From Phoenix dactylifera (lineage: Eukaryota; Streptophyta; Magnoliopsida; Arecales; Arecaceae): a DNA stretch of 64,000 nt. Below, in pieces: positions 21,201 through 63,419 of this stretch; within the stretch, counting starts at the first letter, position 1; every line of letters starts with the position of its first letter. Under the pieces are notes generated by a model. That model did not search any database. It worked only from the letters and a program-made list of their open reading frames with translations, and was not told where the DNA came from. The stretch lies in NCBI RefSeq assembly GCF_009389715.1, contig NC_052397.1:13960129-14024128 (forward strand). Reading direction: 5' to 3'. A program made the position numbers and the translations under genes.

Positions 21201-24200
21201 GAAGGTATTATTTGGGTTTCTTGGCCATGTGTAAGTACTGAAGATTATTCTAGTGCATAGCCGATGTAGGACTAAATACACACTTGCATGAGTCCTCACA
21301 TGCTCCTCTTATTTTTAAGCTCCGATGTCTTTGCCAGGCTAAGGATCTAAATCCATTCACGAAACCAAGATCAACTCATGGTTAACCTAAATGGGCTTAT
21401 GCTGCAGTGTTTCCTAGTCCATATAGGCATGGGCTGGGTCGGCTTAGATACTATTTGTAACAACCTAGGACTTCACCCAGAAAGGCTCCCTGAAAGGTGT
21501 TATTTGGGTTCTTTGGTTCTATATAAGTACCCAAGATCTACCCAATGCTTAGCCGATGTGGGACTAAATATATGTCCGCGTGGATGCTCACACGATGAGG
21601 AGATAGTGGAGGGGGGGTGTTGTATTGCATCTCATACTGAACTAGTACATGAACAATACGGGGTTGATGTGTGAGATTTCAAAACTTATTTTTTTGAACA
21701 TGTGTTTACTCTTGAAGTTTCAATTTCCTTTTCCAAGTAGGCAAAATTGGCTATAGAATGTGGACTTCATATCTAGAATCCTGGTGTGCTCTTCATTTCC
21801 CTTGATATTATAATACCTTTATTTCTTTCTTGTTTCTTTCTTTCTTTCACCACCAAATAATTTTAGTTAGACATCAAAGTTTGGCCATGTAAATACCTGA
21901 TAGGTCTATTTTGCATCAATGTCTTACAAAATTCACATCCTGAGCTACTGTTCGACAGAAAATATACAGTTCCCATAAATTATTTGATTAAAGTACAAGG
22001 ATGATGTTTTGGTGATTCGAATGCTTGTAATTGGAACAAATTGGTCCCGATTTTATTATTTTATTGTGATCTCTGGAACAATATGCAAAATCTAAAGCCG
22101 TTCTTATGTTGTGCATAGTTTCCTCCTAGATCTCAGCCATGACACAATCTACTAAACAATGTTAAAAAATGACATCATTTCTAATCCGATGATGTTTGAA
22201 TAAGTTCATTGCCATTTTTCATTATGTTTTTTTTTTTCCATGAGTCCCAATGCTTAAAGGAGGTTCAGTGGGTACATGCATGTCCTTTTTCCCTGGGAAA
22301 AGGACTGGAGAACTGGAAAAGACCGTCGTATCTTAGAGAATGCCTACAGTAACTAAAGTGAAAAGGCCAGGCCAATAAAATATTTTTCTTAGAGTTTCCT
22401 CGCCGATTTGATTGCTTTTCTTTTAATAGAAGATTAAAGAGGCTTACTAACTTTATTTTGTGTTTAGGGCTTTCTAGAGAATAAAGCATACCCTCTGTTG
22501 GTGGGATGTGCTTCCTTTCTGTTGGACTGGTTAATTGAAGGACATGGGGGATATTTGGAAACCAATCCTTCTACTTCTCCAGAACATTCTTTTATTGCTC
22601 CAGATGGGAAGACTGCAAGTGTCAGCTATTCATCGACTATGGATATGGCCATTATAAAAGAAGTATTTTCTGCAGTTATTTCATCTGCTGAGGTGACTTA
22701 AAGCTTAATCTTGGCTGGCTAGACATCTATATGCTTTGTTAACCTCCTTATTTATCAAATCAGATTCTTACTGCTTTTTTAAATATCTTATACAAGAAGT
22801 TATTCAAATTGTTTATGAATTTAGGTCTTGGGGAGATCCAATGGTGATTTTATCAAGCAGATCAAGAAGGCACTATCAAGGTTGCCCCCAACAAAAATAG
22901 CTAGAGATGGTTCGATCATGGAATGGGTGAGAGGATACTTTACTTCATTAGTTTTTGATTACTAATTCTTTTTACTCCGTGGCTCTTTACAATGTCCTAT
23001 TTTAGTTTTGTTGCCTGTTTTGTGGTAGCCTTAAAATTTTTATATATTTATATATACGGCAGGCACAAGATTTTGAGGATCCAGAGGTGCATCATCGACA
23101 TTTGTCACACTTATTTGGTCTTTTCCCAGGACATACAATAACAATTGAGAAAACAACTGATTTGTGCAAAGCTGCTGGCAACAGCCTTTACAAAAGAGGT
23201 TTGTGGAAGAAATATATAAGAAAGATTCGTTCAATTATGTGCATTTTGTATGATAAACACCTACAAAATTTTAGAATTATCTTTTGATGCTAAAATGGAC
23301 TAAATCTCTGATCAACCAAGACAGTTTTTTTTTTGATTGATCAATTATGTCTAAATTTGGTTACTTGCTATATAATCTGGCTGTAAGCAACGCTAAACAT
23401 GTTAATTATCTGTAGGATTTTCAGAACTCTATTTGCAAACTGATGCCTGGCCCACCATCACAGATGATATCTGCAATCTAAAGAATCCATAAACCACATT
23501 TTGAAAAGACTAGTGGTTCGGCCAGGGTAATGATTATATGCTGGTAATTAATTTGATGACTGCAGCGGAAGCAAAAAAAAAAAGGAAAACAAGAACTTAA
23601 TTAAAACACATTAATTCAGAAAGAGGGAAGAGACTAGGACCAGGGCCCCTTTTCCTTCACATGTGGAAATCCTAATGAAAATTTCTTTTTTATCGTGCAA
23701 ACTCTAAAAAATCATTAGTATGGTCCAAGGTTTGCTGTGTCTGTACTGGAGCCCGTATCGGTCGGTTGGCAGCATGATTCGATACGCCCCTGTGCTGGCC
23801 CGTACCGACATAGCAGGGAGGGGGAGGGAGACCAGGAGAGAGGAAAAGAGAGAGAAAGGGGGGAGGAAGGGAGAGGGTGAGGGAGGGGCGGCTGCCGGAG
23901 GGCAGGAGCAAGGGTTCCGCCAACGAAACAGGGGTCCGGAGGGCGGAGCCTTTGCTCCGGCCTTTTGGAGGCCTCCAGTGGCCCTCTCTCTCCCTTCCTC
24001 CCCCCCTCTCTCTCTTCCTCTCTTTCATTCTCCCTATCCCCCTCCTGCCGGTTTGCCATTTTGAATGCCGGAACCGTTCTGGTCCGCCGCCGGCACAGCT
24101 CGGTATACTCCGAATCGGGCGGTTCAGGACAGTTCCAGATTTCTTGGTACGGTCTCATGATTTATTGGCCAGCCAAAAGAGAGCCCTTGATGGACTCCAA

Positions 24201-30070: not shown

Positions 30071-30299
30071 GTTCTCTCTACTCTTGAAGATCTATACATT
30101 AAACAATTTATGTAAGTACACAGTTGTAAAAATAGCTCGCTAAACTAATACAAAATTGCACAATACATTATAATACCTCGTAAGTTGTAAATTCGCTTGT
30201 GTAATCCAGTACAAATTCTGATCCAATTATACTCGATAAGGTTGTAGCATAGCCCTACATATAAAATAATTTATCACCAAGAATTAATGAATCAGAGGA

Positions 30300-30585: not shown

Positions 30586-30925
30586 TGAAAAAAAAAAATT
30601 CGAAACAAGGTGGAACACGTACCTTTGCGGCCGATTCTTCGTCCCAAATCACTAGTTGCTTGTCCATGCTTCGAATGGGGCTTAAATCTCCTTCAAAGAT
30701 CGCCTAAACGATGTAAATGGATCGAGGGGTTTAAGGGGGGTTTGAGGGGGGGTTTTTTTTTTTCTTTTCAAAACGAAACGGAGGAGGAGGAAGGGGGGGG
30801 GTATGAGAAAATTTCAAGGGCAATATGGTAATTACACTAAAGGTTAGTTTGGGTATTTTTTTTTTGGTTTTTGGGGGGTGTCCTGAGCAATAGGGGGGGT
30901 GTATATAGAACTACCCCATTAGGTT

Positions 30926-42800: not shown

Positions 42801-45800
42801 GCCTTTTTAAATCAGATCACTGTTCAGAATAGTCCTGCAGATGATTGTGGTGTGTCAGGATTGGTAATACTAAACTCATCAAAAGTTTATTCTTCAGCAA
42901 AATTAATGGATGGCACTTTCAAATCTACTGCAGAAAGGGTGAAATCTTTTAAAGATGATGAGGATCCATTATTGGTGGAACTTCTATTCCATTATGGTCG
43001 TTATCTGCTTATCTCTTGTTCAAGGCCTGGGACCCAGATTGCCAACTTACAAGGAATTTGGAATAAGGACATTGAGCCGGCATGGGAGTATGCTCTTTCC
43101 CGATAATTCTACCTCTATATTATTTATACTATATTGTTTTCCCTAAATAATTAGCTCAGTGATATATGATGTTGTGGTTTCTTGATACCTTATCATGTCC
43201 CTGATTGTTAGTTGATGAGAATTTAGATATGCTAATGGTGTCATTTTTATCGTTACTATTACTACTACTTATTGTTGTTGTTGTTGTCATTGTTATTATT
43301 ATTATGCTCATCATCATTGAGAGAATGGAGGGAGATCCGCTTGCACTAGAAGGCCTAAATACTTGAGAATGCACCACCCAAGATTCAAACCCAGAATCTC
43401 TAGTTCCTAAGCAAAGGTCATGCCGCCACCGCCGCCCCCACCACCGAGAAAATGGAAGGGAGACCGACTTGCACTACAATTGCTTGGTCCAAAATACTTA
43501 GAAATGCATATCCAAGATTCGAACCCAGAACTTTTGGTTGCTAAGTAAAGGGGTGTGAAGTAGATGTATGACCATGGGGATGAAGCCCACTTCATAGATA
43601 TGTTGATGTTATTATTCCATCATCATCATCAAAATCATAGAGAGAGAGAGAGAGAGAGAATGGGAGGAAGACCTACCTATGCTATAATTACCTAGGCCCA
43701 AATACTTAGGAAGCCCAAACCTTAGCTTAAACCCCACTGTTAGACCCTAACCCAAGCCGTGGCCCATGCTTGAAGCTAACCCTTGTACCATATCTCTAGC
43801 CAGACGATTAGCTTGAACCCCATCTCCTTTGGCATATGCCTATTTATAGTAAAACTACCCCAAGTTGTACAAGCCTTGGTCTATGTTATGTGGACACTTC
43901 ATTATTAAAGTTTTTGAAGTATTAACACTTTTGGATACTTGGGCATGGCTGGATAGGATGTGACATTGTTGGACACTCTGAATTTTCTTGCTGATGCCAG
44001 CAAAATGTGATGCCATATGGCAGTTCTATCACGCACGTGGGACTTTTAAATTCAAGTGCAAAATGTTGCAAACAAAGTGACATTATGTTTAATAAGTATC
44101 ATGGTTATGTGAACACTTTAAGTGAAGTGTCAATATTTTTTATTGTTTTATCAATTTAAGGGTCTTAAGTCTTAACACATCTTATGTGTATGGACATGTG
44201 TCTATCTACGTACACACTTGTCTGTGTATAGTGTTTGGCACTTGCGTTGCACATACTTCAATCAAGAAGAGGGAGCAAATATATGATGGTGATAAACAGT
44301 CTTCATAGAAGCATCAGGACTCTAACATTACTAGAAGCATTAGGACCAAGGTCCGTCGTACCGGTACCGGTCGGCGTACCGGTGGCGGGCCGGACCGGTA
44401 CGTACCGGCCGGTATCGGTACAGTACCGGCCGGTACCACGAGCTAAAAACCACAGCGCCTCGCGCTGTGGTTCATAAAAAAAAAAAATTCGTACCGGTAC
44501 CAAGCGGTACCAGCCGGTACCGACCGGTACGGACTCCGTACCGGCCGGTTCGCACAAGAAAACCGGAGATACCGGTTTTCTTGTGGTTCCGGTACCGGTC
44601 TAGGACCGGACCGGTACGTACCGGCCCGTACCGACCGGTACGTACCGGCCCGTACCGGCCGGTACGGGCCGGTACGTCATTCCATGATTAGGACTCTAAT
44701 TTTGTAATCGAAAAGAATTATTGAAAGACCTCAGTTGGCAAGCAAGTTGGACTCTGATGCTTGCTCGATGTATATAGAGAAGAAATGTATACACACTTTC
44801 ACTAATATGTTTATATCTATATGTACATATGAACATATATATATATATATATATATATTACCATATATGTGTGTATATTTATGTATGTGTGTGCCTATAT
44901 GTATGTGTGTCATGCCACCATTCCTGGATGTTTGGAGGATGTCATATTTGACACTTGAGGATATGCCGAGTCTCTAGGCAACACTACCTAGTCCAGACCT
45001 ATGCATAGTCTGAATGATTCATTAGGACCAAACATCATACTGATCCCACTCCAAAACTTAGTAACACAAAACTTCTACTCAGGGTTGTATGTCCATTTTG
45101 AAAACTCCTCAAGAGCTTAAACTGGTACCCACTTGTTAGGTGCTTCCTTCATGTTTTTAAAATGTTTACCTCCCCACACCCATAGGGTACCTCTCCTAAG
45201 TTTGGCAAAACAAGATAAACAACTAAATATACATTTCCCCACCACAAGCCATAAAAATTTTACCATCGTAAAGATCCATATATATCTAGGTTATGGCACC
45301 AATGTTGTTCCCAAGGTTCGCCGAACCGATATCGGAGGCTGTATCGGCCAATGACCAGTTCAATACGATAGGGGTCTATGTTGTGCCATTTCTGGGTGAA
45401 CCAAAAATAGTGAGAGGGAGGGGGAGACGAAGGGAGAGGGAGGAAGTGGGAGGAAGGGAGGAAAGGGGGGAGAGAGGGAGCGGGGAGGAGGGTTGCCGTG
45501 GAAGTGGGGGGAGCGAGATATAAAGTGATGGAGAGAGAGAGAGGGGGGAGAGAGAGAAAATCCTAACTCGAATACTTGGATAGGGAGGGGGGAGGGAGGA
45601 AGAAGGAGAGGGAGGGAGAGAGAGGAGCGGGACTCACCCGTCGGGAGAGAAAGGAGCGGCCAGAGGAGGCTTCATGAGAGTGTTGAGAGAGAGAAGCTAC
45701 CGAAGGAGGCCTTTGAGGGCATTAGGAGAGAGAGGAGCAGTTGGAAAGGTTACACGGGGGCATCTGGTGAGAGGAGCGATTGCACACATTGGGATGGGGA

Positions 45801-48800
45801 GAGATGAGTCTCGCATATTTAAGAGGGGGAGAGACAAGCCTTGACTTAACTCATAGGCTTATATCCTGAATTGGTATGCTGAACCGTGCCGATAACTGAT
45901 CGGTTTAGTTAGGTACACCCCGAACCGGCCTGTTTGGCATGGTTCGGCAATCCTTGGTTGTTCCTATTGGCCACACTTAAATCAAACTATAATGCTCCAC
46001 CCTTCCGCTAATATAAAGGCCAACGTAGTCATGATCACACTTAGAATTTGCTAATAAGCCCTTCATTCATCTTACTTTATGGGCCAACCTCATCAAGAAC
46101 CAAGGTTCTAGTGTTCTATATCGCATGGTGCATGGCTTATCATACTAACCTTGTGTCGTACAGTACAGTATGAAGGCTCGATGCGGCACTGTACCAACCC
46201 ATGGGATAGCTACTATGCCATCTCTAGTAACATACTATGTATCAATACAGGGGCATTACTGTACTGACCCAATCAACACCATTAGGGTATTGGTATGGTC
46301 TCCGATACTGAGATTTGAAAACCTTGTTGGAAACCATACCAAAAAGTTAGTGACATGCCAATAATACTAGCAGTTGGTCTTTTCACAGATCCACTGAATT
46401 AAATGACTTGGTTTTCACTCTATATTTAAGCCACTTCCACACCAAACTCACCTCCTACAAGATTCAGTTGCCTACACAAAACTCTTCATGTCTGAACCTA
46501 CATTATCATCCTATACAGAATCATAGCCATCGGCAAAACCTCATAACCAGATTATCTCACTGTATATAGTCCAACCATTCCAAAATGCAAATTAGAATCA
46601 TTTCAATCTTCCATAACGAGGCAAGAGATTCCATTGGCCTGGTTCTAGGAAAAGTAAATGAGAGCTAGTTAGACCTCTATTTTGGAAAGTCAAGGATCTA
46701 TGTATCTATATGTGCTGGTTCTTGTTTTAGGTAGGTATTCTGCTTCATCAAGTAATTCCTATTGTGAAGTAATGGAACGAAGATTACCAAGAAAATGAAG
46801 AGAGAGAGAAGAATTGACTTCTTTATAATTGAAACTACTTTGGAATTAAAATCAACTATGGTAAACCTGATGTCTTGATGGTTGACGGAGTTAGTTGGCC
46901 TTGTATGAAAATAATGATATGCACAACTAGAGCTGGGAAAAAAATCTTCCTATGCAAAAACGGTTTACCAATAAAAAGGTTGTCACGCTATAATAATAGG
47001 AGTTTGAGCAACTCACTTTCATGAGCTGGGTTCGGGTTAGTTTAGGCCAGTTCTGGCCCTGAAACAAGTTGACCCCTCATTTCATGCCAATTCCAACATG
47101 GTACTGGCCCGGTTCAGGGCAGCATGGAAGATGCTGGTATAAGCTCAAATTACTCCCAAACAATCAAAGAACAGGTTTGGCTCATCTTTGTGCTAAAATG
47201 ACCACTGAGGCACATAGAGTAGGAATTTTAAGAAATTTTCAGAGGTCTATGTAAGTCTGTGACTAGTTTTTGTGCATTTGTATCAGAGTGTCGTACTCCT
47301 CTACTTATTTATTTATTTTCTCTAATATCTTCATATCTGTTGTATCTATATCCACTTTTTGGCATATTCTGCTAGGAAGTATGAGCTTATGACTCGCTTA
47401 ATGAGCACCTTTTCTAATTTTAGATTGAACTTTTAGTGATTTATAATGCTTTGACCATAGAAGCATGGGTGTATAGTGAGAAACAAATGCACGTAATTTC
47501 TATGCATGGCATTGTGTTGTTTAAAATAGAAAAGCTGACTGTTGTTTTTCTTCTTCAGTGCAGCTCCTCACTTAAACATCAATCTGCAAATGAACTATTG
47601 GCCATCCCTTTCTTGCAACCTTAGCGAATGTCAAGAACCCTTATTTGATTTCATTGCTTCTCTTGCAGTCAATGGGAGTAAAACTGCGAAAGTAAGATGT
47701 TTTTCATGCTTGACTTATCTTCAAATAATGTATCTCCTAGTAAATTGTGTGGATTCAAAATTCTCAGAAGTAGCAAAAAATTTTGTAGCAACAGGTATGC
47801 ACCAAAGAATTTTGCTGTGCGGAAAATTTCCACATCAGTTTGCAACTTGCAGCATGATAACTTGTACTTTGTTCAATTCCCTTTTCTAGAATGTGCTTAG
47901 TTGGTTATCATATCACACTGACTAAATTGATATTTATTTTAACACTGCAACTGGATTTTTTTTTTCATAATGTGACTTGTTTATGTTCTACGAGTTCAAT
48001 AGCAAATTACCAGATGTTATGTTGGATTGAGCAGTGGTTAGCGAGTGGTAAGTTAATTTTACAGTTATATAATAATGACATATTTCTTCTTGGTATGATG
48101 CAGAGTTATGCTTAATATTAGTTGGAGGGACATGAGATTGACCAGGCTATTGCAATAGATCATGGTTTATAATTTTGTTAATTTAATGATCTGCACTGAC
48201 AGGATTACCCCTCTAAATCCATGGTTGGATGTGAATTTAGAAATTGATTTTCGACAATGAGCTATGTCCACTTTTGAGAAGGATAAAGAAGATAATATTA
48301 ATGCTTGGCCTCAAGCCAACTAAAATTCCAGTTTGACTTGAACATCGGCATCACGACTTTTGGTACTAGAAATTGCCTGCATAAAGACAGTTTTTTTTTT
48401 TACATGATTGTATGTGGATTGTCTCACTGGTTGGATTTGAGCCATGGACAGTTTTTTTGCATCTGGTTTTAGTTCACCTGGCCCTGGACTTGCTTCTATT
48501 GCATGTGCAAGGAAAAAATGATCAATGATGATATTCAGAAAGGTACTATTTAAACATCCATGTTGAGAAGGGGCTAGTTGATTTTGCTTTCCAATGCACT
48601 GCTTCCTCGCGAGCATGGAATCAATGGAAGGAGGGAATGATACCCGGAAAAAGTGATATATGGATAAAGATTTTCCAAAGAAATCAGACATCTTGTTTAA
48701 ACTCAAGTAGCTGTAGCCTGCAAAGGGGAACCTTTGTTTTCTTGAACAATTTTAAGCCAAGTTACAATGAAATAGAAACACAACTAAACAGCTAATGTAC

Positions 48801-51800
48801 GATGTCAATGTTGAATAAGTTATAATGATATGCTTAGAAACAGCTAATAAATTTGAATAAGCTTATTAAGCACCTCAGTGCAAAGCTTTTTGTAGTGTAG
48901 AGCTAAATTCCATGAAGATCAGTTGCCAACTAGGATAAGAGTGTAGGACCAAAAAGTTATGATGATATAACTGTTATATGCAACATATTGAGGGTTTAAG
49001 GGTTGCAGATATCATGTTAAAGTCTTAATTTCAAAATTTTCTTAAAAGATGCTCATCATGAGTAGATATTGTAATGATTAGAAGATATTTCATGCACCAT
49101 CGCACGGACAGATTGTGCGCCTCTGTGTGTGTGAGACAAAGAGAGTAAAATTCCATGTAGATCTTTTGCCAACTAGGATGATTAGGATTCAAGAGTGTAG
49201 GACCCAACAAAAGTTATTATAGTACAGCTGTTATATGTGACATGTTGGAAGTTTCCCGGCTGATGGTAGCATGTCAAAGTTTCCACTTAATTTCTAATTT
49301 TTCTCAAGGGCTGCTAATCTTGAGTAGATCTTGTAATGACTAGAAGATGTTTCATGCATGTCCACACATAAAGAGTATATGTATGAGCACTATCATCCCA
49401 AATCTCGAGTTACATGTTGGTAGTAAGTAAAGCATGGCATAGTTTTGAGTATAATTAATGATTAGTGGCGAACCTACTTCTCCAAAATAACTGCATGGAC
49501 ATTATTATTATTTAACTTTTTATATACATTATCTCTTGTTTAATGGTTGTTAATATATCGATTGTTAAATATCCTTCATAATGCTTACAGGTCAATTATG
49601 AAACAAGTGGTTGGGTGGCACATCAGGTCTCAGACATATGGGCAAAAACATCACCAGACCGTGGTGACCCTTTGTGGGCTTTATGGCCAATGGGTGGAGC
49701 TTGGCTTTGTACACATCTATGGGAGCATTATAGTTTCACTTTGGATAAAGTATTTAATATAAACACATTCTTTTGTTATATTATTGGACTGTTAGCATGC
49801 ATTACTATTGTAGTATCTGATATTCCCTGCAAAATCTACTATTTTGCAAGATCTAAAATGGCAACCATCTGGTACTGTCGACCCCATTTCATGAATTGTG
49901 CCATCCCATATCAACATGGGGTATTATCAGCTAGTTCCACAAACTATGTGTAGCAACCTAAAATCTCATCCAAAAAGGCTAGATAGAAGGTATTATTTGG
50001 GTTCCTTGGCTATGTGTAAGTACCGAAGATCTTCCTAGTGCATAGCCGATGTGGGACTAAATACACACTTGCACGGGTTCTCATATACTCTCCTTATTTT
50101 TAAGCCCCGGCATTCTTGCCAGGCTAAGGATCCAAATCCATTCACAAACACCAAGTTCAACTCATGGTTAGCCTAAATGGGCTCGTGTTGTAGTATTCCC
50201 TAATCCACATAGGCATGGGCTGGGTTGGCTCTGATACTATTTGTAACAACCTAGGACCTTACCCTGAAAGGTGTTATTAGTTCATATCTAGAATCCTCGG
50301 TATGCTCTTCATTTCCCTTGATATTGTAATACCTTCATTTCTTTCTTGTTTCTTTCTTTCTTTCACCACCAAATAATTTTAGTTAGAGTGTTAGACATCA
50401 AATTTTGGCCATATAAATACCTGATAGGTCTATTTTGCATTAATGTCTTACAAAATTCACATCCTGAGCTATAATGTTTGACAGAAAATATACAGTTCCC
50501 AAAATATAAATTATATGATTAAAGTACAGGGACGATGTTTTGGTGATTTGAATGCTTGAAATTGAAACAAATTGGTCCCAATTTTATTATTTTATTATGA
50601 TCTCTGGAACAATATGCAAAATCTAAAGCCGTTCTTATGTTGTGCATAGTTTCCTCCTGGATCTCAGCCATGACACAATCTACTAAAAAATGTTAAAAAA
50701 TGACATCATTTCTAATCCGATGATGTTTGAATAAGTTCATTGCCATATTTCATTATGTTTTTTTTTCTTCCATGAGTCCCAATGCTTAAAGGAGGTTCAG
50801 TGGGTACATGCATGTCCTTTTTCCCTAAGGAAAAGGACTGGAGAACTGGAAAAGACCGCCGAATCTTAGAGAATGCCTAAAGTAACTAAAGTGAAATGGC
50901 CAGGCGAATAAAATATTTTTCTTAGAGTTTCCTGTCGGATTTGATTGCTTTTCTTTTTGTAGAAGATTAAAGAGGCTTACTAACTTTATTTTGTGTTTAG
51001 GGCTTTCTAGAGAATAAAGCATACCCTCTGTTGGCGGGATGTGCTTCCTTTCTGTTGGACTGGTTAATTGAAGGACCTGGGGGATATTTGGAAACCAATC
51101 CTTCTACCTCTCCAGAACATTCTTTTATTGCTCCAGATGGGAAGACTGCAAGTGTCAGCTATTCATCGACTATGGATATGGCCATTATAAAAGAAGTTTT
51201 TTCTGCAGTTATTTCATCTGCTGAGGTGACTTAAAGCTTAATCTTGGCTGGCTAGACATATATATGCTTTGTTAACCTCCTTATTTATCAAATCAGATTC
51301 TTACTGCTTTATACAAAATGTCTTATACAAGAAGTTATCCAAATTGTTTATAAACCTAGATCTTGGGGAGATCCGATAGTGATTTTATCAAGCAGATCAA
51401 CAAGGCACTATCAAGGTTGCCCCCAACAAAAATAGCTAGAGATGGTTCGATCATGGAATGGGTAAGAGGAGCCTTTACTTCATTAGTTTTTGATTACTAA
51501 TTCTCTTTACTCCGTGGCTGTTTACAATGTCCTATTTTAGTTTTGTTGCCTGTTCTGTGGTAGCCTTAAATTTTTTATATATTTATATATATGGCAGGCA
51601 CAAGATTTTGAGGATCCAGAGGTGCATCATCGACATTTGTCACCCTTATTTGGTCTTTTCCCAGGACATACAATAACAATTGAGAAAACACCTGATTTGT
51701 GCAAAGCTGCTGCCAACAGCCTTTACAAAAGAGGTTTGTGGAAGAAATATATAAGAAAGATTCGTTCAATTATGTGCATTTTGTATGATAAACACCTACA

Positions 51801-52557
51801 AAATTTTAGAATTATCTTTTGATGCTAAAATGGACTAAATCTCTGATCAACCAAGGCAGGATTTTTTTTGATTGATCAAATATGTCTAAATTTAGTTACT
51901 TGCTATATATTCTGGCTGTAAGCAACCTTAAATATGTTAATTATCTGTAGGATTTTCAGAACTCTATTTGCAAACTGATGCTTGGCCCACCATCACAGAT
52001 GATACCTGCAATCTAAAGAATCCATAAACCACATTTCGAAAAGACTGGTGGTTCAGCCAGGGTAATGATTAAATGCTGCTAATTAATTTGATGACTGAAT
52101 CGGAAGTCAAAAAAAAAAGAACACAAGAACTTAATTAAAGCACATTAATTAAGAAAGAGGTAAGAGATTAGGACCAGGCACTTTTCCTTCACATGTGGAA
52201 ATCCTAATGAAATTTTCTTTTTGTCATGCAAACTCTAAATAATCATTAGTACGGTCCAAGGTTCGCTGTGCCTGTACCGGAGCTCATACCAGTCGGCTGG
52301 CGGCATGGTTTGATACATCCCGTGCTGCTCTGTGTTGGGCCCGTACCAACACAACAGGGAGGGAGAGGGAGAGGGACGGGAGAGAAGAAAAGAGAGAGAG
52401 AGAGGGGAAGGAAGGGAGAGGGAGAGGGAGAGGGAGGGAGGGAGGGCCGTCGGAGGGTAGGAGCAAGGGCTCCGCCAATGAAACAGGGGTCTGAAAAGGG
52501 GAGCCTGTGCTCCGGCTCTCCGGAGGCCTCTCGCGGCCCTCTGTCCCTCTTCCTCCC

Positions 52558-52593
<36 letters not shown>

Positions 52594-55243
52594 TCATTCT
52601 CCCTCTCCTCTCCTGTCGGTTTGCCGTTTTGAATGTCGGAACTATTTCAGTCTGCCGCCGGCATGGCTCGGTATGCCCCGAGCTGGGCGGTTCGGGACGA
52701 TTCCACATTTCTTGGTACGATCTCATGATTTATTGGCCAGCCAAAAGAGAGCCCTTGATGGACTCGAAGATGAACCAAATGCATCTAGACTTCAAGGAAG
52801 CTACTAGAGATAAGGAAAGATATTGAGAGAATCCTGTTGCTTGGCTCTGTTTGGTTTCTGAGGAATGGAAAGATGAACAAGAAATTTCCTCTGGTTGAAA
52901 ACACAAGAAAATGGGGGTTTTCTATCATTTCGTTGCATTAAGAAAATCAAAGTGAAAGTTATAGACAGTCACAAAAGCTTTTATCTTGTTTTGTTGGTTT
53001 TGGATTGACATTGTTGTTGCACTAAGAAAATCAAAGTGAAAGTTATAGAGAATAGTGAAAGGCCTTTTTCAAAATTGCTACCTTTGGAAAAGGAAAAACT
53101 AATGGTTGTAAAAGAAAAATTTGGACCCTATATAGTATATTCTCTTGAAAATTTTCATTCTAAAAGTTCTCTTGGCTAGCAAACATTGGAAAACAATATT
53201 TCAATGTCATAAACTCTTCTCTTTATGGGCTGCTTTATAGGCCCAAATAGGGCCTTTGCTAGCCCATAAGACAACCTTTTTCGCTTGTAGGGTGATCGTG
53301 ATAACTATATGACAAAACTGATGTAAAAATAATAGTATATCAATATTCCAAAACCAAATTACTTCTTATTCTGATACACAATAGAGTTACAGATTGTTCC
53401 TCAGAAATTTCTAAGTTTCTGCAGGCACTTCATCAATAAATTAGGATAAATCTCGTCTAGGTTTCAGAAAAGAGTAAAATGTTGCTGGGCAAAAAACGGA
53501 TGCAAGTTGCACATACCAGGTCAACAAAACTATTGCAAGCCACCGTATCTCAGACTGATGATGGTATTCGTTGTTATTTCTAACATCTTGTTACATTACT
53601 ATCAACAATCGAGGTAACTTGATATTATTGGGCTTTCTCCTTTCTTGACATCATGTGCAAATGGCTTCATGTGGCCCACAAACCAGCTGCCTGGTGTCCT
53701 ACACCTTCCCACTTTATGTCCCACATTGCTTTTAGGCTCTCTGCTTATAAAATATAGTGCATGCTCTCATTTTCCTACATTAGTCTCACGTTTAAATTGT
53801 TTCTTTATTTGTCATATTTTGACAATTTTCTATTTGTCTGTGACTGGCTCCGAATTCACTAGCCACTGGCTGATTATGAGAATGTCTTCCTGCTGTCTGT
53901 TGGCTATGATAAAATGAAGATTTGGATGCTGCCAAGAGAAAATTAGACATCTTACTGCATTTTACTTCTGAGTTTTCTCCGAGGAATAGATTAGCATGGA
54001 GGGTCTGATTCATTTATCATTTACTATTAAATGTTGTGTGAATTCTAATGAAAACACTGATTTTTGTTATGCACCCCAAGGAGAGGGATGGGACTCTGAA
54101 ACAACCCCAAACAAATGGTATCATTGTTAATAAAAATGTACAGACTTAGAACCGCAGACATGGATGATGGGTAAGAAAGATGATTTTCTTAGCTAAGAAT
54201 GAAGTGCGGCATGATCAAGAAATGTCAAAGTACTAATACTTCCTCAAGGTCAAAATACATGAAGACAATCATTTGGTTTATCTTAATAAAACTCATAAAT
54301 AAGAAAAAGAACAAGCTTAAAAGATGCATTTGCACGGCATAGGATGTTGGCCTTTCCATGGTCTAGCTTGAGAGATGAAGGAAAATACACCTCACCACGT
54401 TTATTCAGCATACCTTTTTGGGCCTCTATTTTACATGGTAACACACCAAATTAAATGTAGTTCTCATTGCTAGGATTCCTCATATTGATCATGTTGGTAA
54501 GCCAGCCTGCAAAATTCTCAACAAGCCTAGATTTCTAGATATCTTGAGAGTGCAACTGAATGCGAACATCTAAATTTCCACGTAATGCCTATTTTGACTA
54601 ATGTTTCATTGGCTTTTCCAGGGGACGTCGGCCCAGGGTGGTCAACCACATGGAAGATGGCTTTGTGGGCCCGTCTTCACAACAGCGAACATGCATACAA
54701 ACTGGTCAGGCAGTTGATCAACTTGGTAGATCCTGATCATGAAAGTGATTTTGAAGGAGGGTTGTATAGTAACTTGTTCACAGCACACCCTCCATTCCAG
54801 ATTGATGGTAATTTCGGGTAAATCATGTGATTCCATACCAACTTTCAACATACCGATAAACTTTTTCAGCAGAAGGCCAAATTTTCATCCTTGCCAACTA
54901 GTTTTGATACTCTCTTTTCAGTTTCACTGCGGCAATTGCAGAAATGCTTGTCCAGAGCACGAAGCATGATCTCTATTTACTCCCAGCTCTCCCACGAGAA
55001 AAGTGGGCTGAAGGTTGTGTTAAGGGGTTGAAGGCCAGGGGCAATGTCACAGTTAATGTCTGCTGGAAGAAAGGGGAACTTCATGAAGCCTGCTTTTGGT
55101 CTAAGAACCAAAACAGTCTCAAGAGATTGCATTATAGGGGTACTGTCGCCACTGTTACATTATCCCATGGAAATATCTACAGATTCAATAAGCACCTAAA
55201 ATGCGTGAAGACCTGCTCCTTGAAAGAAGGAATATTTCTTTGA
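39848..55243 (+). CDS. FUC95A: GH95 alpha-L-fucosidase, copy 2
   Basis: Ten exons encode 863 residues: 39848-40064, 40563-40708, 42132-43087, 47559-47691, 49591-49749, 51001-51225, 51360-51461, 51598-51733, 54622-54817 and 54922-55243. Exon lengths equal copy 1 exactly and no stop or frameshift was found. The catalytic Asn446, Asn448, Glu576 and Asp753 motifs are kept. At most places where the copies differ this one is nearer the family consensus (SPDRG, EGPGGY, GPGWS, SDFEGG). The exception is Pro662, in HLSPLFGLFPG, where the family has His; that histidine is near the active site in GH95 enzymes. The intron 5 donor is AAA-GTATTT, weaker than in copy 1. Intron 4 is 1.9 kb instead of 0.33 kb. 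Activity of this copy is therefore uncertain. Confidence 0.92.
43318..43712 (-). repeat. SINE-like units in GH95 intron 3, copy 2
   Basis: Counterparts of the units at 15806-16315: two full units (from about 43318 and 43439) and a third cut off near 43712, where about 410 bp present in unit 1 is missing. GA and CAT microsatellites lie between them. Confidence 0.45.
44347..44686. mobile_element. hAT-like MITE in intron 3, copy 2 only
   Basis: The 340-bp element begins CAAGGTCCGTCGTACCGG and ends as the inverse of CATGGAATGACGTACCGG. A perfect 8-bp target duplication ATTAGGAC flanks it (44339-44346 and 44687-44694). Unit 1 carries one ATTAGGAC at 17620-17627 with nothing inserted. The interior is dominated by GTACCGG and CCGGTACG palindromes. 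Confidence 0.9.
44835..44859. repeat. (AT)n microsatellite
   Basis: About twelve AT units occur in intron 3 of copy 2. The matching place in unit 1 (near 17765) has only a short ATATATG stretch. Confidence 0.9.
45312..45956. mobile_element. Complete 645-bp hAT-like MITE in intron 3, copy 2
   Basis: Ends are CAAGGTTCGCCGAACCGA and the inverse of CAAGGATTGCCGAACCAT. It is flanked by a perfect 8-bp duplication GTTGTTCC (45304-45311 and 45957-45964). The interior is strongly purine-rich (GGGAGGAAGG, AGAGAGAG) with no coding frame. A left-truncated copy survives in unit 1 (17948-18476), so the insertion predates the duplication. Confidence 0.88.
46101..46326. mobile_element. Old hAT-like MITE in intron 3, copy 2
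   Basis: This is the counterpart of 18621-18847, from CAAGGTTCTAG to GAAAACCTTG, with the same GTACAGTACAGTA interior. Only a few substitutions separate the two copies. Confidence 0.6.
47845..49415. other. Extra 1.57 kb in GH95 intron 4, copy 2
   Basis: In unit 1 the sequence passes directly from ACAACTTG to GTAGTAAGTAAAGC; here about 1.57 kb lies between. It has no gene and no clear terminal repeats. It contains two diverged tandem copies of about 190 bp (see 48905-49345). Whether it is an insertion here or a loss in copy 1 cannot be settled from the window. Confidence 0.55.
48905..49345. repeat. Two diverged tandem copies in intron 4, copy 2
   Basis: Blocks starting near 48907 (AATTCCATGAAGATC) and 49150 (AATTCCATGTAGATC) share GCCAACTAGGAT, AGAGTGTAGGACC and CTGTTATATG in the same order. 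The second is slightly longer and carries ATTAGGATTC in addition. Confidence 0.7.
49949..50280 (-). mobile_element. TRIM remnant in GH95 intron 5, copy 2
   Basis: The left LTR (49949-50085, 137 bp) and the interior match the TRIM at 21164-21592. The primer-binding site is better kept: on the minus strand it reads AGTATCAGAGCCAACC. The right LTR starts at 50242 but is cut after about 40 bp (GTGTTATTAG) by a deletion of roughly 265 bp that also removed downstream flank. Confidence 0.8.
52257..52714. mobile_element. hAT-like MITE in GH95 intron 8, copy 2
   Basis: The element runs from CAAGGTTCGCTG to CACATTTCTTG, with flanks GTACGGTC and GTACGATC (8-bp duplication, one change). It has the same GA-rich left and CT-rich right halves as its unit 1 counterpart, with longer simple-sequence runs. 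Confidence 0.75.
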
Positions 55244-57300
55244 CTATTTGCTATTTTAGATGGGTCGACCAAAAAGCAGTAGTTTCTCAAGATCATCAAC
55301 CAAGGAGCTTCCTTTTCTTACCTTACAATTTAAGTCAGCCAAATACTTTCATCTTTGATATCAAGTTTCCATTCTACATATTTAGTAGAAACTGTAACGG
55401 AAGGAGCGGTAAAGAGATCCCATTGGAGTCGCGACATTTTTGTTCTGGTAAGTAATAAAGGGACCTGACTAATGGAATCATGCAATTCATCATTAGAATG
55501 TGCTGGTATTTTGTTTATTTATTTTCTTACTGTTTTGAATGCAATAGGGAATCAGAGCAGGAGAATCCTTAAACAAGGAAGAGACTAGAAAAATGGGGTC
55601 ATTACAGGCCCATCAGAAGCATGCTGCTTTCATTCGACAGGAATGGCATCTCAATTTGGATGTAAAATAAATGTTTCTTTTTAAAAAAACTATGCTGCTG
55701 AGCACCTTGGTGAATGTTCATCTCGTTGATATGATAGATGGGAAAACTTAAAAGGATCTAGGATTTTTTGAAATTTTTTCTGATATTTAAGATGGAGATA
55801 TTGAACTTATGGCCAGTATGATAAATTGGAGATTGGCAATTAGTTTTACTTTAGTACTTCCGGTCGATTAAAGCAATAAAAATTCAGCAAGAATTTTTTA
55901 AAATAATCATCAGTTTGGTGAGGCAATCAATCTCCTTTTTTATGGTCGACTGATAGAGCAAAGACTAGCGACCAGCGGCATTGCTCATTGAGGCTCCATT
56001 GGCTTATCAAAAGAGTTCCAGGCTTCAAAACCTCTTGGAACAAATAAACTAGTAACTTGTTTAAGCGTTTGTTATCAATTAGGTAATCAGTGAAAACATA
56101 AGATGAATGAGTGAACTAAATATGATTGACCAAATTGAAAAAATAATGGGTTAAGATCATATTGTTTATTTGGAATTGAAGAGAGGAGAATGAGTAGATA
56201 TCGAATGATTAATTTCTATTTTTTGTTATTGTGGAATCCGTCACTAAGATGGATTGCTCTTAAGCAGTCAACAAACTCGTCCTAATGCAAGAGCCTTTTG
56301 CGAGCAAATTTGGAAATGAAAGAAAGCTACTGAAAATTGTTGATACTGAATTATTTAACTATTGATTTTAAAATAGTTAACTTAGAAACTGATTCAAGGG
56401 AGTAAAATCACGTTTTAAATGTAATGGCCAATATGTTTTTATAGTACTGGCTGATATCTCAAGATTTACCGGTTTACATTAATGTAGTTAATAAGGGTCA
56501 AGATTTTCTATATCCTGCATCAATACAGGTTAAGATCTTGCCCAAGATAAAAGTATTGATGCAAAACCAATTAAAAAATTTCTTTAAAGCTCCATAGCAT
56601 TTGCTATAATCTATACCTGATACTAATAATACCTTTTGTATAGTATTTTGAATGCAGAGAGTGGTTCAACGGAGTTCAAGAGCACCCAGTCTCCAGCATT
56701 TGAAAGAAAGAGAACATCTTCACCCCATTCGTAAAACCTTAATGCCTGAGTGCTTGGTGCAATGAATGCCAACTGTTTCTAAGCAACTACTTCAAACACA
56801 ATATCCCATAAATCATTATAGAGCTAGATGGTACCATTAGCCTGCCCCATCATCTATAAAAAACTGGTACGTGGTAGATTCACACCTCTAATCACACATA
56901 AGGGTGCTATCATGTTGAGTCAGGTCTGTGTTTCTGCTAGCCTAGTATTGAGCATGTTGGACTCCTAGGATTTACACATTTAACCCAAATTTTATCCATC
57001 CAAGAATTGGTCAAATTCAAGTTCGCGTTGGACTGAGTCAGGAAGGAGTTGGCTTTAGGTTCAAGACCTGAGTTGGATTGGATCTGATTGGGACTATGCC
57101 ATTTTTCCGAATGTTCATTTCCTTCATGCCCTTTAAAGGAAAGGCAGGTGGTTACTGTTTTTCAGTTTTCTTTTTTTTTTTTTTCAAAAATTAAAGTCAG
57201 TTTTTCCTTTTCTGTTGAATACCAAAAATTTGAAACTCGTCAGGTGAATAAGGTTACAATGGTGGAGAAGGTGGTCATGTTGACAGGCAGCATTAGGTGG
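55244..57300. other. 3' region of GH95 copy 2, no further gene
   Basis: This aligns with 26654-28700. It is AT-rich with a probable 3' untranslated region at the start and no new exon recognised. Small extra blocks occur (for example near 55995-56070 and 56836-56920) compared with unit 1. Confidence 0.55.
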
Positions 57301-57317
57301 TGTTGGTTGGCAGGCAG

Positions 57318-57585
57318 CACTAATATCAGTGATGGTCACAGATGATGATGACCGGTAGAGGCGGTGTTGGGTGGTGGCGGTTAGCAACAGTGGCCAGCGA
57401 TGGCCACCGTGAGTGGTGGCGAGCGCTGGTAAATGGTTGCAGGAGGCAAAAGGTGGCTGGTGATGGCCGACAACATGCAAAGCTAGCAATCAGCACTGGC
57501 CAGTGGTGGGCAATGCTGGTGGTTGGTGGTGGCTATAATCTCTAGAAATTGGTCTCCAGTTTACTGAACACCTGTTTGACCTTGG
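57318..57585. other. GGTGG-rich stretch only in unit 2
   Basis: About 260 bp of GGTGG, GTGGTTG and GCGATGG words lie between GGCAGGCAGCA and CTTCCATGTTTTTG. In unit 1 these flanks adjoin except for the MULE, so unit 1 lost this block before the MULE inserted, or unit 2 gained it. No gene is seen. Confidence 0.5.
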
Positions 57586-58257
57586 CTTCCATGTTTTTGA
57601 AATAAAAAGTGAAATAGGAAACCATGCCAAAACGTGCGTAAAACTATTCTCAGATATCATGGTCCCAAAGGACAATTAATAAGCTTGATAGGAAACATGG
57701 GGAGTATAAAGGTAAAACCAACATTATATACAAGGTAAACTTCATGGTTTGGATTCAGTTCGGACTCGGGCAAGGTTAATGCAAGATATGACCCGGTGAG
57801 ATCAAGGTGGCATTTAGTCGAACCAAACCATAACCGAAAATGTCATATGAACTCATAGCTAACCAGTAGACCTACAAGTCAGATTGCGGTCGGCGTCAGT
57901 TATCATTCCGCAGATATTGGTAACAACCCTATAACTATCCTAAGAAAAATGTAATTCATGCACCTGCTTCTACAGCCATCTCTAGTCTTAACCCTCTTGA
58001 AATCCCTTTTACTTTGAGCCTGAGAACAGCAAGCCTCTACCACTCCTTCTCGACATCTTATATTAAATGATCAAATCCAAAGATCTTAACTGCTTTTCTT
58101 GTAGCTAACATAATTACTGGACTCCAGCACTAATCCTTCATCCATGCACACTCTTGGCCTATCCTAATATCCAATGCACAACATTTATAATCTTCTACAT
58201 TTCACAGAATACAACTACACTTTTAGAAGTCCCTTCATATTCCATAGCCTCTGTAGA

Positions 58258-58440
58258 CTAATGTACATCATCTTCTTCGCCATCCTCACCCTTCATCCTA
58301 GAAGATACAATCCTACTCATACACCCATCACATCCTAATCCTCTTCTCCTAGTTAATTCTTCGCACAGCTGATAAACTGAGTTTCTCTGAGACTCAGAAA
58401 AGAGATCATTCTCTTCTTTCCTCCAGACTTTTTCACTCAA
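58258..58440 (-). other. Possible C-terminal exon of unknown protein
   Basis: A minus-strand frame of 60 codons has a mixed, protein-like composition (KVWRKEENDLFSESQR, then an acidic GEDGEEDDVH end and a stop). The unit 1 counterpart (about 31540-31720) lacks about 10 bp and is out of frame. I do not recognise the family; it may be the end of a lost gene or chance. Confidence 0.2.
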
Positions 58441-59109
58441 AATCCTTGAGCCCTTTCTCCCTCCATTAAAGGAGGAAAGAAAACTTAGCGTGCTTACATA
58501 TAACCCATGTATTTTCAGAACCTTAGGTTCCCAACCAACTTTTCAAGAATCCTTTACCTTATCCTTACCCTAGTATCAAAGAAGAAAACTCCATTACAAA
58601 AAGAAGACAAAATCCACCCAGTTAGAGCTTGAGAGTAGTGACTCTTTAGTTTAGGGGCTGAGCTTCTTTTCAAGCCTACCGAAAAAGATCTTCCTTAGTG
58701 TTGGCAATGTATAAATGCGGCTATGCCTTTTTGCTCTTCATCTTTTTCATTTTACTTGCCTCGCTTGCTTTCATGTTCTTTATTTCATGTTTTCTTTCCT
58801 GCTTGTGTCAACTTATTTACCTTTTTCTTTTTCTTCCTTGTGTCCCTAGGTTTACTAATCTCCTACTGAACAATCAATTGTGAGTACTAAGCAGATTCAA
58901 ATTTACTATGATGATGTACAGTCATTCTTGTATGAACATTGTTTACATTAACAGAAGTGGCACGATAACAACCAACCTGAAGAACAATGCTTTTTTTTTT
59001 TAATGTCATTCTAGCTTGGGGCATGAACAATCCATTTTTGTCTCTCCAACACTAAGGGTACAACGAAATGAGCCTGCTACCTCAGTTGATTGAGAATTTT
59101 AATGAATAT

Positions 59110-59504
59110 CTACATTCTAAAATCCAACACATATACAGCATTGTTGGAGAAACAGGCTGCTAATTTATCACCTTTTTGGTTCCAACACACTTCACAAAAT
59201 TTCACTTCCCCACTGTAAGTCTTCACAGCCTTCCCCTTTCTTTCAGGGACCATATGTGTACACATTGATCTGAGCCAGGAAGTAAACACTCACCGTTTGG
59301 GCTAAATGCAACAGATTATACGGGAAGCCTGACAAATCACAATATGTTGTTCATAAGAAAAACTAAAGACATTACTCCAATTAAGCATATACAAATTTGT
59401 GATTCATCTTATGAGTTACACTTCATTACCTATGAGCATTCAAACTGTACAGAAGCCTTCCTAGTTCCGCATCCCATAACTTGATTTTTGAGTCAAACGA
59501 TGCA
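59110..59504 (-). pseudogene. HOS15: HOS15-like WD40 gene fragment, unit 2
   Basis: The exons are 59504-59430 (after an intact TAG acceptor; ASFDSKIKLWDAELGRLLYS) and 59328-59110. The second keeps CVHIWSLKE, the canonical CWNQKGDK and the VLDFRM end with its TAG stop at 59112-59110. It is closer to the functional gene than the unit 1 copy. It still has a TAA in place of the Tyr codon of PVYSV and a 2-bp frameshift in the KE-GKAVK segment. No upstream exons are present before the unit ends. Confidence 0.75.
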
Positions 59505-61718
59505 CTAGACAAAGTCAGGTTCGGTGATCAATAGCCATTTACAAAAGCTAGTGGTAAAAAAAACTATAATTTGAATTCACATGCAACAAGGGGGAAATTA
59601 AAAAACATACAAGACATACAACATCCAAATTACACAACAAAAAAGTTATTTCAAATAATCTTCCATACATTCAAAAGTTCTAAGTTTGAGATTTAGAGTG
59701 TTTAAATAATATCATTGTTGATGATTCCAGCTCACATAAAAACATATTTTGGTGCGAGAGAGAGAGAGAGAGACAAAAAGAGTGTGTGAACTTTTGTTTG
59801 ACAGGTACTCTCCAAGTTTATCCATACATAAGATACCATAACCATTATAACATGATTCATAGCATGACACATATTTAAAGCTACGTCATATCCATTTTAC
59901 ATGACCTTCCTGTTTTCTCCCATCATCCCCCCTTTTCTCGTAAGAGTAAGACTGCCCCCCTCCAGCTATTTCCCATTGAAATAGTCATATCCATCTTTGA
60001 CATACCCAGACATCCAAACATTGCCTTTAAGGTCCCTTCAACCTTGTCTTTTATTATTAGGTTCCCTATAGGTTTATTTCAATGCTTAACCTTCACAATC
60101 CTTGAAGTCATCCTACATAGGAAAAGATCAGTAGTAGGATGTCTACAGATATCCAACATGTGCTTAGCTAAATGAAATTATACACGGAAATTAATAGGTC
60201 ATACAACTGGTTCCACTTCAAACTGATTAGACGAATGCAATAAACAAGTAAAATATTGGCTTCACTTTCAGAATGTTACATCTAATAAGATAATTTAGCA
60301 AGTTGTTTGTGGGAAGATGAAAGTAAAGCTACCTCACTTCACAAGGGGCACCATGAATGAAGTTGGCACTCAAGTTTTGGGAGAATTGTTGAGACTTAGG
60401 GGTGATACATGCAAAGGAAATGTCTGGAGTTCAAATAGTAGCTTTTCTTGACAACAGAAAGGTTGAGGTGCAAAGGAGCGTGCAAAATCATGATAAAAGA
60501 GTAAGAAGGATTGCAACCCAGAGCTTATATTAAGTAAGTACTTTAGCTTGTTCCTCTGCTAGAAGCAATTAAAGGATTTCTTTTCTTACTAGTATACATG
60601 ATAACCCAGCTTTTCACTTCCCAAAATATCCCTAACTACTCTTTTGCTTAAACCATGGACCCTACCTTCATCTACGGTCATCTATCATCACAAATGACTA
60701 AGTTGCTAGAGCCTCTGAAAAATTTGGAATTAAACATAAAATCTGAAGGACTCCAACAACTAGCTCCATGCTACGTCCTCTTTCCCATTCTCTTAATTTT
60801 TGTACGAGGAGTTAAATGTTTAAAGTGGACTTCTTTGTCCTGCTTAGACTTTTTGATATTGCTCCAAATACCCTTAAAGATTTTAACATATCATACTTAA
60901 CCATAAAAACTCAAAAACTAGATTTTCTATCATAGTACATGCATCGAAGGAAAGCCTTGTTTCTTAAGGAACAAACAATAATCAATAACCAACATTAATA
61001 TTAAAATTATTTTGAAGTTATTTATTGTAAGATCTCCATACATGAATAATTATATTTCACGCACTTATTCATGTGGCTTACAGCTAGTACCAAGAAAAGT
61101 TGCTACATGTTTCAACTAAAAGGTCTACTTCATTGGAGACCCAGTCAAATAAGTTTTCTACTCCATCCAGGTCAATCTAAACCAGAGTCCAGACACAAAG
61201 GATTGCTAGAAAATTGAAGGGTTCTAGAGATTGGTGCCTGGAGTCAATAGTCTAAAAATATGTTGGTTAGCTTTTCACACTAGTTCCCAATCTAGGAATG
61301 AAAATCCAGATCTTTTGCTGTTTCATGGCCTTTTAGGTAGGTTTTTATTCTTCAACCTAGCAGGACCTGTAAAACATTCTACTTTTCAATGGAGCTATTA
61401 AAGGCACAGCTTGGTGATTAAGATTGGCTTTATAAAGTCTAATGATATAAATCATGCCCCAAATTTTTATTACTTTCTTATATTCATGAAAGCTCTAAAT
61501 AAATAGCACGATAAGATTGCAGAAAATAGAGTGATATTACAATGGTTAACCTGAGAAGCTTTGAGATTTTGGTGGACCTACCATGCTGGACTTGAATCCC
61601 ACACCCTCTAAATCCTTCTCTTTTTCTTCCCCATTGTTTCCTCTTTTTACCCTTCTTTTATATATCTTCTGGAAAATCTATATGCGTTATTTGAGGTTCG
61701 AACTTAAGCACTCTATAC

Positions 61719-61928
61719 CAAGGTCCGCCGTACCGGTACCGGTCAGCATACCGGTGGTGGCCCGGACCGGTACTGTACCGATCCTGTACGGTTCCGTACT
61801 GGTATGACAGTCGTACCGGCCGATTTTCCAATAAAAAGCTCCCGGTACCGGATCCCATGCTGATCCGGTACCGGTCCCAGCCCGGACAGGTTCGGACAGG
61901 CCCGGACCGGCCGGTACGGCATACCCTG
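61719..61928. mobile_element. 210-bp hAT-like MITE, right flank
   Basis: The ends are CAAGGTCCGCCGTACCGG and the inverse of CAGGGTATGCCGTACCGG, matching at 14 of 18 positions. Flanks are CTCTATAC and CTCTATAA (7 of 8). The GTACCGG-rich interior is closely similar to the start of the element at 44347. Confidence 0.85.
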
Positions 61929-63188
61929 CTCTATAATTTAGACCTTATTCTCTTGACTACAAGCAAGTGCTTTATCAGCTTAATTTTAGGTATGATTTTT
62001 CCTTTACCAAGTGCCTCTTGGTTAGCAACAGATAATAGGACAAAAAGATGATGAAATAATGGGAGAAATATGAGAATTCAATATACAAAAATTAAGGAAA
62101 ATAGGTACAACATACTAGGGAAATTTACGTATATGATTAAAAGAGAACAATGTTTTAACCAGAACACATAACTAAGGCTAAAGAAATTAAAGACATCGAT
62201 CTAAAAATAGTAAACTAACAAGTGGAATTTACACAATGTTGAACCAAATAAAGCCTGGATTGCATTTGTCAATATAATTGCAGCTAAAAGAAAACATACC
62301 TACAAGAAGAAATACTGATACCCATCTATTATATAAAGAAGAAAGACATTCTAAATGCAAGTAGAACCATAGTAACAATATTTGGCGAGTTTTTCAATAA
62401 TTTGTGAATTATTCATCATATGATAGTTAACCAAATTATTCTGACTTATCCACTGGTTTGCGAATGGATCATGATTAAATCGTAAATTTCATTGGTATCA
62501 TGAATAATCACAAGATTATTAATTGTTTTGACTTACTATGCAGGGGGAAAACAATGTGGACAAGACAAACAGAAAAAAAAGAAAAAGAAAAAGGCATCCG
62601 GGAAGAAACGGAAACAGATCGAAATAAAGGTCCATGGCTCCCATGCATGAATTTCCTCAAACAAGTAATTTGAGTTGATATCCATATCTCACCTTCACAT
62701 GAATTAAAATTTTTTTGGCTTCCTCCTTTATTTTGCTTCTCAATTTTTTTTAATATCAAGATATCTCCGGGACATATTCAATGGGAAGTAATAATAAATA
62801 TATTAAAAATTTTAGATTTTTATCAATTTTTATTATCTATGAGCATATATCTGAAGTTGTTGTTGTTGTTATTTTCTGAACCTTTTCCTTATTTTTTTCT
62901 GACTGTACCAAATTAGTTCCAAATTCTAAAGTTTCCAACTTCATTGAACTTGTGACTATGAGTATAGCAAAGAAAATGAAGGTAAGTAGCTAAGATAGAT
63001 GCAGTAATCACCAAGGACACCAACCCTTTTTGGGCAAGGAAATCATCCTGACTGGGCCCTCAAAGTTTTCAAAAACAAAAGAAGGGTGATATGAGAACGG
63101 AAGAGCCCAATTGTAGCCTAGACAGTGTCTATTAAGATTTAAAAAGTTTGTTTTTAGGATGATAGTATCTATCTTCAGCTGTTTTTAT

Positions 63189-63419
63189 CAAGGTTTTCTT
63201 CACCCAACCCATACTGCCTGGTATCGAGCAACATTGTATAGACCTGATAAGGTACTATTATGGTACAGGGACTCGATAAAATCTTGCACCGACATATGGT
63301 ACAACTGCTATCTCGCCTCCAGCAACATACTATGTCTTGCTATGGGGGTGTACCGTACCGGTTCAACCCATACCAGTAAGATACTAATACAGTGTCTAGT
63401 ACCAAGACTAAAAACCTTA
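63189..63419. mobile_element. 231-bp hAT-like MITE, right flank
   Basis: It begins CAAGGTTTTCTTC and ends CTAAAAACCTTA (last base changed from G), inside a perfect 8-bp duplication GTTTTTAT (63181-63188 and 63420-63427). The interior has GTACCGTACCGG and resembles the 18621-18847 type. Confidence 0.85.

Follow-up and report, generated by a model that had tools for sequence, protein, structure and literature searches.

GTACCGG-type miniature hAT elements in the date palm genome and their coding parents

The window analysed here is a 64,000-bp stretch of the date palm (Phoenix dactylifera) genome, located at C6:13960129-14024128 of an assembly of 773,078,369 bp which was searched as a whole. 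It contains a tandem duplication of about 28.6 kb, with unit 1 at roughly 5393-34106, unit 2 at roughly 34110-60847 and an identity of 83-96% depending on the block; both units carry glycosyl hydrolase 95 (GH95) domains in what are probably alpha-L-fucosidase genes. The window also harbours a series of miniature inverted-repeat transposable elements (MITEs), several of which very probably belong to one hAT family, here called GTACCGG-type after its repeated motif, with coding parents elsewhere in the genome.

All elements are given on the plus strand. The one at 44347..44686, a 340-bp MITE of subfamily A, runs from CAAGG to CCATG, holds 21 copies of GTACCGG/CCGGTAC and lies between perfect 8-bp target site duplications (TSDs) of ATTAGGAC (44339..44346 and 44687-44694). 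Its terminal inverted repeats are imperfect, with 14 of 24 bases paired; ends in the family are of the CAAGG/CATGG or CAAGG/CAAGG type. The second array-bearing element is a 210-bp MITE at 61719..61928 (CAAGG...CCCTG, nine GTACCGG/CCGGTAC, TSD CTCTATAC/CTCTATAA at 7/8). Purine-rich sequence with at most one GTACCGG characterises the other members: a 342-bp MITE of another, more diverged subfamily at 16877..17218 (TAAGG...CCTTG, purine/pyrimidine foldback interior, TSD 6/8), a 645-bp MITE at 45312..45956 (CAAGG...CCTTG, GTTGTTCC on both sides, perfect) whose unit-1 copy at 17946-18476 lacks the 5' end, and a pair formed by a 421-bp MITE at 23726..24146 (TSD GTATGGTC/GTACGGTC, 7/8) and its 458-bp unit-2 copy at 52257..52714 (GTACGGTC/GTACGATC, 7/8). 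Two further stretches resemble these at their outermost bases. The 231-bp hAT-like MITE at 63189..63419 has a perfect TSD of GTTTTTAT, while the CAAGG...CCTTG stretch at 18621..18847 has no TSD (4/8 by eye) and none was found when one was looked for at its unit-2 copy, 46101-46326.

An earlier note on this DNA had taken all of these for one family with CAAGG...CCTTG ends, GTACCGG palindromes and mostly 8-bp duplications. Reading the sequence upheld the perfect duplications at 44347, 45312 and 63189, and six elements do reach 7/8 or 8/8; the general statement on duplications does not extend to 16877 or to 18621/46101, nor does that on ends extend to MITEs of the 44347 type, which finish in CCATG in place of CCTTG. 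The GTACCGG arrays are real, but in the window they are confined to 44347 and 61719.

A scan of the window for CAAGG...CCTTG with at most one mismatch, 150-700 bp apart and with a TSD of at least 7/8, returned six places, which are exactly the six elements with duplications at that level, three of them perfect. Thirty first-order resamples of the window gave a mean of 0.57 places (maximum 5) and 0.10 perfect ones (maximum 1). Since 23726 and 52257 derive from a single insertion, the independent insertions number five, which only equals the top resample; the three perfect duplications exceed all of them. Among 30 permutations of CAAGG (itself included) run on the true sequence, the runner-up gave three places, none of which was perfect. 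The motif GTACCGG/CCGGTAC occurs 34 times in the 3,100 bp of nine listed stretches and is absent from the remaining 60,900 bp; the 21 copies in 44347 compare with a mean of 1.06 and a maximum of 6 in 500 dinucleotide shuffles. An Rfam search of the window gave no match.

The tandem duplication allows the insertions to be placed in time. In the alignment of the two units, 44347-44686 is missing from unit 1 and 16877-17218 from unit 2. The empty site for 44347 is a single ATTAGGAC at 17620..17627, where the aligned blocks share exactly 8 bp, and that for 16877 is CTTGGGCA at 43938..43945, the filled site reading CTTGAACA and CTTGGACC. Since each has an empty site in the other unit, both insertions most likely postdate the duplication. 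The elements 45312, 23726/52257 and 18621/46101 are older, as they are present in both units.

Relatives of 44347 are abundant in the genome. The best 40 of 1,573 candidates were scored; one of these is the copy in the window itself, and the other 39 were fetched, their 5' ends being located by motif. In this sample, which was chosen by score, 38 of the 39 copies have both ends, with a perfect TSD in 34 and 7/8 in the other four, compared with 14 of 190 shifted-flank controls at 7/8 or better. The hAT terminal inverted repeat consensus is of the type CA(A/G)GG, and Ac-type hAT elements prefer targets of the form nTnnnnAn. The targets of the date palm copies are similar to this, with T at position 2 in 30/38 and A at position 7 in 24/38 (binomial 1.6e-9 and 4e-5 against an assumed 0.31, including one pair with common flanks, L020 and L021, and two sites in TA repeats, L038 and L049). 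For the 16877 subfamily, 784 candidates were found in the genome, and 11 of 16 fetched copies, again chosen by score, have a TSD of at least 7/8, eight of them perfect. Among the relatives of 44347, L048 was scored as a compound of two elements: at L048:379-1044 two different family members stand side by side and the 8-bp target ATTTGGCC is present three times, as if the second element had entered exactly at the duplication of the first.

A 24-bp 5' end pattern with two Y positions occurs 538 times in the genome and the exact 17-bp 3' end 360 times, and their reversed controls do not occur. Among the matches listed on C1-C3 (88 of the 538 5' ends and 62 of the 360 3' ends), 34 exact-end pairs are spaced 117-565 bp apart and none at 0.6-15 kb. 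To reduce the bias of choosing by score, 20 stretches at exact 3' ends lacking an exact 5' partner were sampled on the same three sequences, covering 21 of 29 such ends; 15 of them have a 5' end and a TSD of at least 7/8 (12 perfect), and a sixteenth was found at 7/8 on a longer fetch.

The 44347-type elements are short (mostly about 210-450 bp), non-coding, present in high copy, bounded by terminal inverted repeats and TSDs and derived by deletion, as expected of MITEs, and their bodies are almost wholly array. The AT-richness usual in MITEs is not seen: the consensus of subfamily A is 354 bp long with 64% GC and that of subfamily B 312 bp with 63% GC. About 125-150 bases into the MITE (L011-L049) lies a hairpin, the core of which is AGCGCCTCGCGCT in subfamily A; in some subfamily B copies (e.g. 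L028, L037 and L045) the core is AGCGCGAGGCGCT, its exact reverse complement, in an identical flanking frame. CpG decay was not supported as a source of the interior differences, with C>T/G>A changes at 0.028-0.029 per CpG site versus 0.043-0.057 elsewhere in 38 aligned copies, 36 of which are top-scoring matches.

The route to the parent elements led through these unpaired exact 3' ends. One of these, L134, adjoins a BED finger frame (zf-BED, 7.1e-6) and closes an element of 1,715 bp at C3:12957937-12959651 with a TSD of 7/8, in which the BED exon is kept. Bases 1-130 of this element match bases 1-124 of subfamily A (89%) and its last 229 bases (1487-1715) match bases 122-354 (92%). Because its two termini match subfamily A end to end, the MITE corresponds to an element of the 1,715-bp type minus its middle, and by sequence the 1,715-bp element is a bridge between parent and MITE. 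A further element, L116 (C1:5451420-5453080), is 1,589 bp long with a perfect TSD of ATGGTACC; its left end is broken after base 12 by sequence of the right-end type, and its interior is common to the 1,715-bp element.

A genome search with the BED frame gave 914 candidates; of the best 150, which were scored, 20 have a frame of 614 aa that is free of stops over the match. One copy, 4,530 bp long and located at C9:8554178-8558707, has the perfect 8-bp TSD GTACAGGT on both sides and ends in CAAGGTCCGCCGTACCGG and CAAGAAAAGCCGTACCGG (the latter read on the other strand); these ends are 89% (bases 1-113) and 86% (bases 228-349) identical to subfamily A. Its 614-aa frame carries zf-BED (PF02892, 1.3e-4) and DUF659 (PF04937, 1.5e-55) and a 368-aa frame carries Dimer_Tnp_hAT (PF05699, 4.5e-12), all above the Pfam cut-offs; an NCBIfam search gave no match, and the 614-aa frame had no sequence match among solved structures. 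This element has ten GTACCGG in its left 200 bp and eight in its right 200 bp, with not one in the 4,130 bp between them (counted on a stretch offset by one base). A perfect TSD was also found in four of six further parent copies: C657 (4,443 bp) and C834 (4,463 bp) have the common TSD ACCAAAAC and may be a single insertion, C14 (4,770 bp) has ATTGTGAC and C69 (4,544 bp) has GTTTACAA. The left end of the parents reads CAAGGTCCGCCG and the right end CAAGGAATGCCG. A second transposase clade has 59-64% identity to the BED query (62-63% in the copies checked), perfect TSDs in three of three copies, lengths of 4,690-4,767 bp and the ends CAGGGTCTGCTGAACCG and (other strand) CAAGGTTCGCGGTACCG. Several pairs of scored transposase copies stand head to head, with about 1.7-2.3 kb between them, at C51:291566/293825, C13:664277/666030 and C5:5013239/5015008, with more such pairs at C500:55687/57650, C558:19254/21521 and C2:4705002/4706673. 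A search with PF05699 (best 150 of 1,658 candidates scored) showed no GTACCGG-rich end at 30 loci or at 20 group representatives, the latter inspected over 2.1-2.2 kb on the 3' side; no shared ends were found on the 3' side of a 660-aa group from this search.

These comparisons show the 44347-type MITEs, at the level of sequence, to be the two termini of longer elements fused by internal deletion, and the parents to be elements of 4.4-4.8 kb with the same kind of ends, 8-bp TSDs and predicted zf-BED, DUF659 and hAT C-terminal domains. The bodies of the MITEs are rich in GTACCGG because the arrays of the parent are dense only in the terminal 200 bp or so and the deletion leaves little else. The hAT-like reading of the earlier note is thus borne out, both by the autonomous element on C9 and by the genome copies with paired duplications.

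Which of the window's elements belong to this family was judged by scoring bases 6-20 of their ends against the ends of the autonomous elements, in comparison with 274 background CAAGG/CATGG sites. At either end of 44347, 61719, 16877, 45312 and 52257, just 0-2 of the 274 background sites match as well. The unit-1 copy 23726 has the weakest end match of the members, its two ends being equalled by eight and four sites. For 63189, the left end does as well as that of 23726 (8/274) and the right end is at background (111/274), and 18621/46101 score close to background on either side (24-113 of 274), so the claim that all ends agree fails at these two. It is highly likely that 44347, 61719, 16877, 45312 and 23726/52257 are non-autonomous MITEs of the GTACCGG-type family; 63189 and 18621/46101 had been included too widely. 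A genome search with 63189 gave 17 matches including itself, the others being partial and 70-79% identical. Because its duplication is perfect, 63189 is classed as a hAT-like MITE, probably a separate and old one, though it may be a much-decayed relative. The membership of 18621/46101 is doubtful.

The alternative that survives best, an unlikely one, is that several unrelated hAT MITE families share just the CAAGG-like termini of the superfamily and that the purine-rich ones have other parents. The background-like right end of 63189, the similarly poor ends of 18621/46101 and the few genome matches of 63189 would suit it, as would the weak left end of 23726, the scarcity of GTACCGG in the purine-rich members and the existence of two transposase clades with different right ends. 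The end comparison argues against it, as so few background sites equal five of the elements, and 44347 and 61719 align directly with each other (85% over 87 bp).

Far less probable is an origin by slippage of the palindrome CCGGTACCGG, through which fold-back or simple-repeat DNA would have expanded, CAAGG ends and duplications being incidental. Self-folding is strong (z -13.9 for 44347 and -7.3 for 16877), the GTACCGG arrays vary in length and the hairpin core is inverted between subfamilies A and B, all of which would fit slippage. It is nevertheless contradicted as the mode of spread by dozens of sites at which fixed ends adjoin 8-bp duplications, by the empty sites and by a coding parent with the same ends; internal change of the arrays may occur through it. 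A different superfamily whose duplications measure 8-10 bp, for instance MULE or P elements, can practically be dismissed: similar duplication lengths do occur elsewhere, so length alone is not decisive, but here the duplications come with a hAT-like target bias, and the coding capacity of the parents includes hAT C-terminal and BED domains.

The assignment to one GTACCGG-type family is weakened by several observations. Among the copies, L046 lacks the usual 3' end, five of the 16 in the 16877 subfamily yielded no duplication, and neither did four of the 20 stretches at exact 3' ends. The right end was not located in two of the six checked parent copies (C1:26184790 and C7:6402510), and the joining of the 614-aa and 368-aa frames by splicing is assumed. 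The purine-rich members, with their 0-1 GTACCGG, match the ends of the parents at just 13-17 of 20 bases (better clade), and their assignment is weakened by the left end of 23726, which does not surpass that of 63189, an element left outside the family. No deletion parent was found for 16877, 23726/52257 or 45312, and it is from partial likeness of the ends that they may be mobilised by the same transposases. The action of the transposase on the MITEs and its binding to GTACCGG are likewise inferred.

A mechanism for the GTACCGG-type family can be proposed on this basis. Transposase from autonomous copies would bind the GTACCGG arrays via its BED fingers, pair the left CAAGGTCCGCCG and right CAAGGAATGCCG ends and excise the MITE, which would be reinserted with an 8-bp staggered cut favouring T at position 2 and A at position 7. 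The arrays are putative BED-finger binding sites by analogy with AAACGG of Ac and STR1-STR2 of Hermes. A tentative and rather improbable extension is that the MITEs keep multiplying their binding arrays by palindrome slippage, that a MITE made nearly of array alone out-competes its parent for transposase, and that the two clades reflect an ongoing race between array and BED finger.

hAT MITEs that have a parent, carry subterminal repeats and vary in their interiors are already known. The monocot Musa reportedly has hAT families with MITE derivatives (Menzel et al. 2014). The maize Ac/Ds system (Ds1, Ds2, Ds-l4) comprises a coding parent and short derivatives with common termini and subterminal repeats, differing interiors and 8-bp TSDs, and Ac transposase binds AAACGG repeats in the terminal 200 bp or so (PMC3260210). 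The date palm system resembles it in its coding parent and short derivatives with common termini, subterminal repeats and 8-bp TSDs, and differs in having GTACCGG instead of AAACGG, a transposase exon with DUF659 and, in the 44347 type, MITEs of mostly about 210-450 bp that consist of little besides array. AAACGG is absent from the terminal 200 bp at each end of the C9 parent and from the consensuses of subfamilies A and B; it occurs twice in the middle of the C9 parent and once in 16877. In Hermes, a hAT element of the housefly, BED zinc fingers bind the STR1-STR2 quasi-palindrome within bases 11-27 of the left end (PMC10368747). The palm element has the palindrome GTACCGGTACCGG at the equivalent place, from base 12; unlike Hermes, the palm parent carries 8-10 motifs arrayed in the terminal 200 bp on either side, and their binding is putative. 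The BniHAT-1/-2 MITEs of Brassica nigra are high-copy elements of about 670 bp with 8-bp TSDs and 70-75% AT, and plant MITEs are usually AT-rich (PMC7385995). The date palm MITEs are likewise high-copy plant hAT MITEs with 8-bp TSDs, but with consensuses of 354 and 312 bp and 63-64% GC, and their GC-rich, almost pure array body is a departure from usual plant MITEs. Neither the matches listed in a literature search nor the accessible part of DPTEdb, for which MITE-Hunter was run on eight dioecious plants with date palm among the species cited (PMC4865326), contained a description of a GTACCGG-type hAT family.

The date palm thus offers a near-complete hAT system in a monocot tree crop, with clean-ended coding parents, a deletion intermediate and hundreds of miniatures, in which two insertions are placed after a tandem gene duplication and odd bodies made almost wholly of GTACCGG are explained in ordinary terms. 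As putative binding sites for studying how plant BED-finger transposases recognise their ends, the arrays are unusually dense and readable, and the coding parents make the system testable.

Besides the MITEs, the duplicated units contain further unit-specific insertions, e.g. 16228-16639 and 47850-49409. A 2.2-kb stretch of unit 1 (28706-30923) combines 63-bp inverted arms (28710-28772 and 30854-30916) with arrays of 33-bp repeats in inverted orientation, and a minus-strand frame in it (29597-30091) carries a FAR1 DNA-binding domain. Its counterpart in unit 2 is 264 bp of different sequence, and the stretch is possibly a MULE-type element with repeated ends.

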